A stretch of DNA of 64,000 bases from Oscillatoria sp. CS-180 (GTDB taxonomy: Bacteria > Cyanobacteriota > Cyanobacteriia > Phormidesmidales > Phormidesmidaceae). A program made the translations under genes and the position numbers. Positions 6,573 through 9,998 of this stretch are shown piece by piece. The stretch spans positions 1 to 64,000 of the forward strand of contig NZ_JAQMUB010000079.1 of the NCBI RefSeq assembly GCF_028330965.1, in the 5' to 3' direction. The notes beneath the pieces are model-generated. The model had not been told where the DNA came from, searched no databases, and saw only the letters and a program-made list of their open reading frames with translations. The first letter of the stretch is position 1; each line of letters begins with the position of its first letter.

Positions 6573-9500
6573 ATGTCTAACGACCGCCCGAACGAATGCA
6601 ATCTTTCAACAACAATGATGGTGACGTCTGAGCTTTTGCATCAGGCTCTTAACGGAGTATCCACAGCGATCTATATCAAGGACAGAGAGCAACGTCTGTT
6701 GTTCGTCAATGATGCCTGCTGTAAGTTGTTGGGGCGATCGCGCAATCAGTTACTCAACGCTCTGGAATCTGAAATGTTGCCCTCAACAATGGCTTTGCAG
6801 CTGCAAGCACAGGATCAGGCCATGCTGCAAGGCAACGCCGCGATCGCCGCAGAGCCAAAAGTCATTATGCTTCATCTTCCCAACGGTCGGTGCCAAACCG
6901 TTACTCGGCGGGTAGAACTGGCTGCCCAGGGTGAGCATATCCTCTGTTTTTTAGAAGACGCTGAGCCTAACAGCCCACCGTCAGAACAGACTGCAATATT
7001 GCAAGCTCCACTATGGCAAATCCCCCAGGTGCATACGCTTTTATCCAATGTCCCTGCTGCAATTTATCAGCTCTATCGTCAGGCTGACGGAACACTACGG
7101 TTCACCTTTATCAGTCCTGGGGCATCTGAGATTTTTGGGATTGCACCCAACACGGTTGGCACCCATGTCGATCACGTACTCGCTCGAATTCACTCTTTAG
7201 ATCGGTCCACTTTTGACCAGTCGCTAGCCTGCTCTGCTGAAACTTTGGAATTTTGGCTCTGGGAAGGGCGTTATTACCAACCGGATGGAGAAACAGGTTG
7301 GATACAAACTGCTGCTCGTCCCCATGGCTTGCCAGATGGCGGCGTTGTGTGGAATGGCCTGCTTATGGACATCACCGATCGCAAACAAGCCGAAGCTGCC
7401 ACTATCGAGCAAGCGGTGATGGAGCAGGCTCTCGCCGATAACGAAGCGCGATTTCAGACCATTACGGAAACCATCCCCGGTGCTCTGATTCAGTTTCGGG
7501 TTCAAGAGGATAACTATTTCGTTGATTTTGTGAGCGATCGCATCCAGGACATTGTGGGGTTGACGCCTAATACGCTCATGGCAAATGCCAATGCCTTGTT
7601 AGAGCGCATTCATCCCATGGATAGCCAACGCCTGCAAGACACTATCAAGGAGGCTGTTGCCCATATCAGTGCTTGGCAATTTGAAGGCCGGATCGTGACG
7701 CCAAGAGGCAGATCTCGATGGTGGCGAATTGATGCCATGCCCCTGCCCCACTTACAAAACGGAGTGGTTTTTTGTGGCGTTATCCTTGATACGACAAACC
7801 GCAAGGCAATTGAGGAAGCTTATCGGGAGAATGAGCGGCAGCTCCGGATGGCTCTCAACGTTTCAGGGATGGGAGTTTGGACCTGGGATATCGCGACTGA
7901 CCAAATGATCTGGAAAACGGAACCCGGAACTTTGTTCAGCACCACCGGCGTGAGCTTTTGCGATACTTTCGAGGCCTATTTGCAGAATGTCCATGTCGAC
8001 GATCGCGCTGTTGTCAAAATGGCGATTAGTCAAGCGCTCAAGGTGGGGCAGGATTATCAGATTGAATATCGCCTCCTTTTGAGTAATGGTGATGTTCGCT
8101 GGGTCGGCGAGCGGAGCGGTATCTGGCGCGATCCAGATGGCTTTGTCTTGGGCTTGATGGGAACCGTTGTAGACATTACCAGTCGAAAGAGCGCAATCAC
8201 CGCTCTGCGAGACAGCGAAGAACGCAATCGTACGCTGATTAACAACATTCCTGGAGCCGTCTATCGTTGCCAAGCTGACAAAACCTGGACCCTAGTGTTT
8301 ATGAGTGATGCAATCTTAGACATCACCGGATATCCAGCCAGCCATTCCATTCACAAGAAGGATTGGGCACTGATTCACCCTGATGACTACGCCCAGGTGA
8401 AACAGGTGATTTCTCAGGCGATCGCTCAAGGTCAGCCCTTTGCAATGGAATACCGCATCTTCCATGCGAATGGTTCCATTCGATGGGTTGAAGAGGCAGG
8501 CCAACCGGTACTGAATGAAACAGGAACAGTCCATCTCCTGGATGGCGTCGTGACGGATATTACCCGCCGTAAAGAGTCTGAAAATCGATCGCGAGAACTG
8601 GCTCACCGAGAGGGACTCATTAACCGCATCTCTACCCAGATTCGTGATTCGTTAGAGTTGATGCCAATTTTACAAACCACTGCGCAGACTGTCCGTAGTC
8701 AGCTCAAAACGGATCGTGTGCTCGTTTATCGCTTCAGGGAAGATGGGTCTGGGGAAGTCGTTGTTGAAGAGGCCACTTCTCAATGGCGGTTATCTCTCAA
8801 CGATCTGGATATCTGCTGTCATGAAATGTTGGCTCAGCGTTATGAAACAGAACGAGTTTCTGCTATCGATGATATCTACACCCCAGAGTTAAACCGCTGC
8901 TACGTACGATATTGCGAAAACCTGCAAATACGCGCTGAACTCATTGCTCCAATCTGGCTCAAAAGAAGACTCTGGGGCTTGTTGATTGCCCATGAATGTG
9001 AGGCAGCTCGCTGCTGGAACAACACTGAGATTGAATTGTTGATTGCGCTTTCTGGACAAGTAGGAATTGCGATCGGTCAAGCGGATCTCTATCGACAGGC
9101 AACCGAGAATGCAGCTCGTGCCCGTCAAAAAGCAGAAGACCTGGAAGCAACTCTGGCAGAACTTCGTCAGACTCAAGCCAAACTGGTACAAACCGAAAAG
9201 ATGTCGAGTTTGGGACAATTAGTGGCGGGTGTGGCCCACGAGATCAACAACCCAGTGAGTTTTATCGATGGCAACATTCCATATGCAGCCCGATATGCCC
9301 AGGGCCTCTTGCAACTGATTGAACAATATCAGGCTGCTTATCCTAAGCCATCTTCAGCCATATCGAGTCTTCGGGAGGACATTGATCTGGATTTTCTCAC
9401 TGAAGATTTCCCCAAGCTTTTAAACTCAATGCGGATAGGGGCTGAACGAATTAAAAACATCGTCACTTCTCTGCGCACGTTTTCCCGCACCGACGAAGCA

Positions 9501-9998
9501 GATTTAAAGATCGTTGATATCCACGAAGGTCTAGACAGTACAGTAATGATTTTGCAGCATCGCCTGAAAGCAGATGGCGATCGCCCCCTCATCACCCTAG
9601 CTCGTTACTATGGCAATCTGCCGCTCGTGGAATGCTATGCAGGTAAGCTCAACCAGGTGTTCATGAATCTTTTGAGCAATGCAATTGATGCCCTTGAGGA
9701 GCAATGTCACCAGGGCCATCAAAACCAATCGCCTACCATTGCCATCACTACACGATTCCACCCACCCACTCAAATCCAGATTACTATTGCTGACAACGGT
9801 CCTGGTATTTCTCGCGAAAACCGTCAGCGCATCTTTGAACCTTTTTACACCACCAAGCCTATTGGTAAAGGAACGGGCATTGGACTATCTATTAGCTATC
9901 AGATCGTCACTGAAAATCATCTTGGCACCCTGGACTGTGACTCAGAAATTGGGCGAGGAACTGCATTTCACATCACCATTCCGACCCAACAGTCATAG
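6573..9998 (+). CDS. Multi-PAS histidine kinase with cyanobacteriochrome-like GAF domain
   Basis: This 1141-residue sensor kinase has five PAS/PAC units in series (about 12-125, 145-265, 285-405, 415-535 and 548-665), one GAF domain (about 680-845), a coiled coil and a kinase core. The phosphoacceptor is His889 in GVAHEINNP. N, G1 and G2 motifs follow (NLLSNAIDAL, DNGPGIS, GKGTGIGLS). The GAF has phytochrome-family marks (RVLVYRF, RAELIAPIW, LWGLLIAHEC). It also has Cys748 in a DICC string and Cys776 in RCYVRY, 28 residues apart. This is the spacing of the DXCF and canonical bilin cysteines in TePixJ (494 and 522). It may thus bind a bilin and sense light; that is inference. There is no membrane segment, so it should be cytoplasmic. 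No response regulator is adjacent. Confidence 0.9.
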   Translation: MSNDRPNECNLSTTMMVTSELLHQALNGVSTAIYIKDREQRLLFVNDACCKLLGRSRNQLLNALESEMLPSTMALQLQAQDQAMLQGNAAIAAEPKVIMLHLPNGRCQTVTRRVELAAQGEHILCFLEDAEPNSPPSEQTAILQAPLWQIPQVHTLLSNVPAAIYQLYRQADGTLRFTFISPGASEIFGIAPNTVGTHVDHVLARIHSLDRSTFDQSLACSAETLEFWLWEGRYYQPDGETGWIQTAARPHGLPDGGVVWNGLLMDITDRKQAEAATIEQAVMEQALADNEARFQTITETIPGALIQFRVQEDNYFVDFVSDRIQDIVGLTPNTLMANANALLERIHPMDSQRLQDTIKEAVAHISAWQFEGRIVTPRGRSRWWRIDAMPLPHLQNGVVFCGVILDTTNRKAIEEAYRENERQLRMALNVSGMGVWTWDIATDQMIWKTEPGTLFSTTGVSFCDTFEAYLQNVHVDDRAVVKMAISQALKVGQDYQIEYRLLLSNGDVRWVGERSGIWRDPDGFVLGLMGTVVDITSRKSAITALRDSEERNRTLINNIPGAVYRCQADKTWTLVFMSDAILDITGYPASHSIHKKDWALIHPDDYAQVKQVISQAIAQGQPFAMEYRIFHANGSIRWVEEAGQPVLNETGTVHLLDGVVTDITRRKESENRSRELAHREGLINRISTQIRDSLELMPILQTTAQTVRSQLKTDRVLVYRFREDGSGEVVVEEATSQWRLSLNDLDICCHEMLAQRYETERVSAIDDIYTPELNRCYVRYCENLQIRAELIAPIWLKRRLWGLLIAHECEAARCWNNTEIELLIALSGQVGIAIGQADLYRQATENAARARQKAEDLEATLAELRQTQAKLVQTEKMSSLGQLVAGVAHEINNPVSFIDGNIPYAARYAQGLLQLIEQYQAAYPKPSSAISSLREDIDLDFLTEDFPKLLNSMRIGAERIKNIVTSLRTFSRTDEADLKIVDIHEGLDSTVMILQHRLKADGDRPLITLARYYGNLPLVECYAGKLNQVFMNLLSNAIDALEEQCHQGHQNQSPTIAITTRFHPPTQIQITIADNGPGISRENRQRIFEPFYTTKPIGKGTGIGLSISYQIVTENHLGTLDCDSEIGRGTAFHITIPTQQS

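Follow-up and report, generated by a model that had tools for sequence, protein, structure and literature searches.

Does the GAF domain of a five-PAS histidine kinase in the cyanobacterium Oscillatoria sp. CS-180 still hold a bilin and sense light? The domain has both cysteines of the DXCF cyanobacteriochromes in a pocket that is altered at other positions. The gene lies in a window of 64,000 nucleotides, by which we mean the whole stretch of DNA analyzed (contig NZ_JAQMUB010000079.1 of assembly GCF_028330965.1, positions 1 to 64,000, forward strand). By homology and by its place in a tree, the GAF domain descends from a DXCF cyanobacteriochrome, and it may now be a light sensor that is either retuned or fading. 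We put at roughly 0.5 the probability that the protein is a DXCF-derived sensor kinase that would still ligate a bilin, with a colour that cannot be predicted.

Domain layout and cysteine motifs

A sequence-only reading of this DNA had described a five-PAS histidine kinase whose GAF domain carries Asp746-Ile-Cys748-Cys and Cys776-Tyr. Both parts of that description hold: five of five segments passed a Pfam PAS cut-off, and the residues are present in the open reading frame at 6573-9998(+) (Table 1). The motif had been recognized correctly, but the start given for the site, 8811, is one codon past Asp746. The PAS and kinase parts of the protein are intact. Pfam gave no match to a PHY domain after the GAF domain; HisKA comes next, unlike the PAS-GAF-PHY order of phytochromes.

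Table 1. Features of the kinase gene and its GAF domain, in positions of the window
Feature	Position	Strand	Basis or remark
Sensor kinase open reading frame	6573..9998	+	1141 aa; PAS x5 - GAF - HisKA/HATPase_c
Five PAS domains	6573..8597	+	Five segments, each above a Pfam PAS cut-off
Cyanobacteriochrome-type GAF domain, aa 672-857	8586..9143	+	
Histidine kinase, HisKA + HATPase_c	9144..9998	+	Pfam
D746-I747-C748-C749, TePixJ 492-495 DXCF motif, Phe to Cys	8808..8819	+	Alignment
Codon of D746	8808-8810	+	
Codon of C748	8814-8816	+	
Codon of C749	8817-8819	+	
C776-Y777, TePixJ C522-H523, canonical bilin Cys, His to Tyr	8898..8903	+	Alignment
Codon of C776	8898-8900	+	
C781, TePixJ L527, Leu/Tyr colour-tuning position near ring D	8913..8915	+	Alignment; PMC7504144 (excerpts)
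E789, TePixJ N535, ring-D neighbour	8937..8939	+	Alignment; PMC6955287 (excerpts)

Alignment pairs D746-I747-C748-C749 with D492-P493-C494-F495 of TePixJ, and C776-Y777 with C522-H523. The 28-residue distance between the cysteines, which had been likened to that of TePixJ, equals the C494-C522 distance in the TePixJ chain. When the domain was aligned with a solved cyanobacteriochrome, as had been proposed as a check, C748 and C776 fell on C494 and C522. Two of the residues sought are present: the Asp that contacts the bilin is D746 (492), and a conserved His is H807 (TePixJ 553). Equivalents of Tyr503 and Arg507 are retained along with these equivalents of Asp492 and His553. This sequence alignment puts both cysteines in the pocket; an AlphaFold single-sequence model of the CS-180 GAF domain had a pLDDT of 42 and was unusable.

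Descent of the GAF domain

A phmmer search against solved structures gave 6oap as the top match to the CS-180 GAF domain (E 5e-33), with 3vv4 at 3.5e-19 and 2m7u at 7.5e-18. We take 6oap to be a cyanobacteriochrome and 3vv4 and 2m7u to be TePixJ; the matches after 6oap are chains that we take to be other cyanobacteriochromes, with bacteriophytochromes further down the list.

Relatives were sought in 142 related genomes beyond CS-180's own and in 62 others of the order. Among the matches listed, ten GAF domains (L067-L076) were 55-66% identical to that of CS-180. Of their proteins, five are complete and share the five-PAS layout of CS-180; contig ends truncate three, and the other two show frame problems. 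The motif is D-x-C-F in all ten and C-H in nine; in the remaining one, L046 (=L075) of genome G001, Asp replaces the canonical cysteine C522. FastTree nested the CS-180 GAF domain within a clade of eleven that it forms with these relatives (local supports from that clade down to CS-180 of 1.0, 0.97, 0.87, and 0.88). Because the domain is nested there, its DICC and CY are read as changes from D-x-C-F (mostly DNCF) and CH. Viral contigs yielded no relatives in two scans, and a plasmid search matched 15 records, every one below 60% identity. A scan of genome contigs with the whole protein returned 7 Paenibacillus loci, which were set aside; their similarity lies chiefly in the kinase part.

DXCF descent, which the sequence-only reading had implied, is thus upheld by the alignment of both cysteines to TePixJ and by the nesting of the domain among DXCF relatives. 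The domain belongs to the clade and has C522 (C776), D492 (D746), and C494 (C748), but lacks F495 (C749) and His523 (Tyr777), the His after the canonical cysteine not being strictly defining for the DXCF class. Because Phe495 is C749, we call the domain DXCF-derived and not a strict DXCF member.

Other GAF domains in the tree have lost one or both cysteines. L062, L066, L102, and L153 form a clade without both bilin cysteines (N-x-x-F, H-H or H-Y) that adjoins the DXCF relatives. GAF domains from ten genomes read D-[DN]-C-[FA]-P with the canonical cysteine replaced by A, N, S, E, D, or T (L060, L115, L140 [=L208], L064 [=L206], L065 [=L202], L203, L204, L205, L207, and L209); this combination gave a match in 8 of 291 genomes. 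The tree includes five of them, which group as a single clade (support 0.999) and retain the other checked pocket positions. This clade is similar to the DXCIP group, although the residue in place of the DXCIP Ile is mostly Phe.

Changes in the pocket

In TePixJ, the bilin is bonded at C10 to C494 and has its second thioether cysteine in C522; D492, Q526, and N535 adjoin the moving ring and H523 shifts upon excitation, according to excerpts of PMC6955287. The canonical cysteine binds ring A (PMC5578081, excerpts), and L527 is a Leu/Tyr tuning position by ring D (PMC7504144, excerpts). The changes found in CS-180 beyond those already noticed are a two-residue deletion right before D746, relative to close relatives; Cys781 (Leu527) and Glu789 (Asn535), at positions that these excerpts place near the bilin; and changes at conserved positions such as Glu760 (Gly506) and Gly725 (469; Trp in 9/10 relatives).

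The domain was compared with a background of 143 GAF domains, mostly a selection from the best matches listed in a search with the CS-180 GAF domain, together with 7 sequences from CS-180's own genome (of 29 GAF matches there) and five solved chains; removal of four duplicates had reduced the alignment from 148 to 144 sequences, CS-180 included. D492, C494, and C522 occur together in 110 of the 143, hereafter dual-cysteine GAF domains. Position 495 is Phe in 100 of these and Leu in 10; position 527 is Leu in all 110; position 535 is Asn in 94, Ser in 9, Thr in 5, Tyr in 1, and Lys in 1. CS-180 has Cys, Cys, and Glu, respectively, and each of these residues is found at its position in 0/110 dual-cysteine and 0/143 background GAF domains. 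Sequencing error is unlikely, because two base changes separate Leu from Cys and likewise Asn from Glu. At position 523, His occurs in 74/110 and Tyr, as in CS-180, in 36/110, so the earlier supposition that Tyr after the canonical cysteine marks a variant type is not supported. Cys-Tyr is ordinary among dual-cysteine GAF domains, yet was gained in CS-180 within a Cys-His clade. A search for "cyanobacteriochrome" with "DXCC" found no paper in one open-access collection, subscription journals being outside its scope.

Some of these changes have parallels in an engineered protein. Counting from Cys86 of miRFP670nano, we take its substitutions H87Y and N99I to lie at positions 523 and 535. H87Y stacks on the bilin and N99I is tolerated, both being compatible with bilin binding (PMC6336887, excerpts). 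Because miRFP670nano tolerates both changes, Tyr777 and the lost Asn535 alone do not exclude a bilin.

The measure of divergence set in advance was the 40 columns conserved in at least 85% of dual-cysteine GAF domains. CS-180 retains 33 of these and alters 7; the ten relatives alter 0-4, and the average over the 110 is 2.4. The maximum among the 110, 9, belongs to TePixJ itself, and therefore a functional receptor distant from the set can deviate as far. The 33 retained columns indicate that the fold of the CS-180 domain is still constrained. CS-180 retains 69, and L046 76, of the 83 columns that do not vary in eight relatives; with 14 of these 83 changed in CS-180, the retention of a few key residues is only weakly informative.

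At seven positions, which were picked after the CS-180 GAF domain had been inspected, CS-180 departs at 5, and more than 2 departures occur in 0/127 other GAF domains with Cys522. The own-genome fragments L097 and L101 were excluded from this test and from the tree, leaving 141 sequences. Among the 14 GAF domains without C522, three have at least 3 departures and six have none. Gly469, one of the five departures of CS-180, is also present in 17/127 of those with Cys522. These post hoc departures and the fast GAF domain described below make loss of photoactivity a serious alternative.

Kinase copies in the genus and rates of change

The GAF domain could be blind, its two cysteines leftovers, and serve as a structural relay that joins the PAS domains to the kinase. 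We regard this as a real prospect, though at somewhat less than an even chance. Changed copies of the orthologous kinase within the genus favor it. The kinase is intact with DNCF/CH in two of the five other genus genomes (G003 and G004) and is damaged or changed in the other three. The G001 copy (L046/L075) has lost C522 and, like CS-180, Trp469 and Gly506, and its GAF domain is fast as well; the G002 copy (L069) has three in-frame stops; and the G005 copy (L070) has a frame change in PAS4, near residue 455, that may be an assembly error. The 7 altered conserved columns, above the range of the ten relatives, point the same way. However, CS-180 retains both cysteines and the equivalents of Asp492, Tyr503, and His553, as well as most conserved columns.

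Branch lengths also bear on a blind domain. With the topology fixed, the CS-180 branch measured 0.52 in the GAF domain, compared with 0.42 in PAS5 and 0.34 both in the kinase and in PAS2-4, so that the GAF rate is 1.2 to 1.5 times that of the PAS and kinase parts. The reverse holds for L067, L068, L073, and L074, whose GAF branches are shorter than their kinase branches. Multiplying the CS-180 branch by 2, the best multiplier tried, gave 2dlnL of 12.0 in the GAF domain, compared with 0.04 for the best multiplier in the kinase. However, the GAF branch also exceeds the kinase branch in L071 (0.065 vs 0.045), whose DNCF/CH pocket is normal, and in L075 (0.202 vs 0.079). Other branches depart too, with 2dlnL in the GAF domain of 41.9 (L075), 17.8 (L074), 15.9 (L073), and 10.2 (L071), and in the kinase control of 14.9 (L075) and 10.5 (L074); because of this overdispersion the values are unfit as exact probabilities. 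In Tajima tests with two outgroups, CS-180 had 34 changes vs 7 and 32 vs 6 for L067 (nominal p about 2e-5) and 28 vs 11 with both outgroups for L068 (nominal p 0.01), but the comparison with L071 was not significant (25 vs 16 and 30 vs 16; nominal p 0.21 and 0.05). The CS-180 branch is fast in the GAF domain and not in the kinase, in a test that is noisy. With a rate just 1.2 to 1.5 times that of the other parts and most conserved columns retained, the GAF domain appears still constrained. We infer that predicted bilin binding with light sensing, on the one hand, and loss of function, on the other, are about evenly balanced.

Bilin supply and gene neighborhood

Genes for a heme oxygenase and for a bilin reductase of PF05996, to which PcyA belongs, are present in the CS-180 genome. 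Together with a Ycf65-type protein, these fit a cyanobacterium able to make phycocyanobilin. No response regulator was found among 8 CS-180 open reading frames scanned in the first 20 kb (7 of the 11 others of at least 130 aa, plus one shorter) or among 9 adjoining the kinase in four relatives. The scanned CS-180 neighbors include genes for a radical-SAM protein, an Rce1-like protease (the upstream neighbor of the kinase), a HAD hydrolase, the Ycf65-type ribosomal protein, polyphosphate kinase, and a Band 7 protein; two nearby open reading frames are, by eye, presumably ATP synthase subunits. Because the neighbors differ between genomes, they point to no function.

A phycobilisome-family protein is encoded in G004 and G003 (L229:6848-7396 and L230:6376-6837; 60 and 62 bits) by the closest open reading frame of at least 130 aa that lies upstream of the orthologous kinase, on its strand. 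In G012 and G011, the upstream neighbor of the kinase is a divergent leucine-rich-repeat gene (L228:6235-7182 and L231:11642-12676).

A possible photocycle and what it would mean

If the DXCF-derived domain still ligates a bilin, C776 would hold it at ring A, as phycocyanobilin perhaps isomerized to phycoviolobilin. D746 would contact the pyrroles, and C748 could add to C10 to give a blue- or violet-absorbing dark state. Light would then turn ring D and the bond at C10 would open, a movement that might pass through the helix after the GAF domain to the kinase, to be integrated there with the PAS inputs. Because the pocket is remodelled (Cys749, Tyr777, Cys781, and Glu789), the colour and photocycle are unpredictable and may differ from those of the relatives. 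The violet or blue sensing suggested by the sequence-only reading therefore went beyond the evidence.

A bolder proposal is that Cys749 and Cys781 give another mode of bilin attachment or redox chemistry, making the domain a sensor of both light and redox state. With four cysteines (748, 749, 776, and 781) at bilin-lining positions and an acidic residue at ring D, the result might be a new photocycle, possibly a light/redox gate on the five-PAS kinase. We consider either form improbable. The absence of Cys495 and Cys527 from the background, the two base changes behind Cys781 and Glu789, the adjacency of C748 and C749 where C10 would be attacked, and the place of C781 by ring D speak for it. 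However, it concerns one genome, none of the ten close relatives has the extra cysteines, and drift can accumulate cysteines too. That an ordinary GAF domain resembles TePixJ by chance is most improbable of all: GAF domains abound (29 matches in the CS-180 genome), but the best solved-structure matches are chains that we take to be cyanobacteriochromes, and the tree, which nests the domain among DXCF GAF domains, and the alignments refute a chance TePixJ-like spacing.

The locus offers a natural test of how much alteration a dual-cysteine bilin pocket tolerates without losing light sensing. Copies of this kinase in a single genus have a standard pocket, a remodelled pocket that keeps both cysteines, a pocket from which the canonical cysteine is gone, or stops, so that their GAF domains can be compared side by side. 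Counts of bilin cysteines alone may predict poorly: CS-180 keeps both cysteines in a changed pocket, and the converse is seen in a neighboring clade that keeps the checked pocket residues without the canonical cysteine.

Comparison with known systems

Insert-Cys cyanobacteriochromes have a CXXR/K insertion loop ahead of the Asp motif (PMC5240096, excerpts); CS-180, in contrast, has a two-residue deletion there relative to its close relatives and no insertion. DXCIP cyanobacteriochromes, like CS-180, keep the second cysteine and replace the Phe, and are described in excerpts of PMC5578081 and PMC6628166 as lacking the canonical cysteine. Unlike them, CS-180 keeps canonical C776 and has C748-C749-H750, with no Ile-Pro. 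Receptors without the canonical cysteine were reportedly described by Fushimi et al. in 2016.

The engineered miRFP670nano (6mgh, from NpR3784) shares with CS-180 a Tyr after the canonical cysteine and a substituted Asn535. However, it has D-R-Y-F without the second motif cysteine and binds biliverdin (PMC6336887, excerpts). The best match in the PDB, 6oap, a dual sensor histidine kinase, has a homologous GAF domain with the canonical cysteine, but reads D-Q-Y-F and Cys-His, whereas CS-180 has a second cysteine and lacks the His.

TePixJ (DXCF; PDB 3vv4, 4fof, 2m7u, and 6p58) shares with CS-180 Asp492, C494, C522, and their spacing, as well as Tyr503, Arg507, and His553. CS-180 differs from it by Phe495 to Cys, His523 to Tyr, Leu527 to Cys, Asn535 to Glu, and Gly506 to Glu, and the TePixJ deposition is labelled a methyl-accepting chemotaxis protein, whereas the CS-180 protein is a PAS-rich histidine kinase. 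The relatives L067-L076, which belong to the same order as CS-180, have the same five-PAS layout in the five full-length proteins but, unlike CS-180, are all D-x-C-F and, in nine of ten, C-H.
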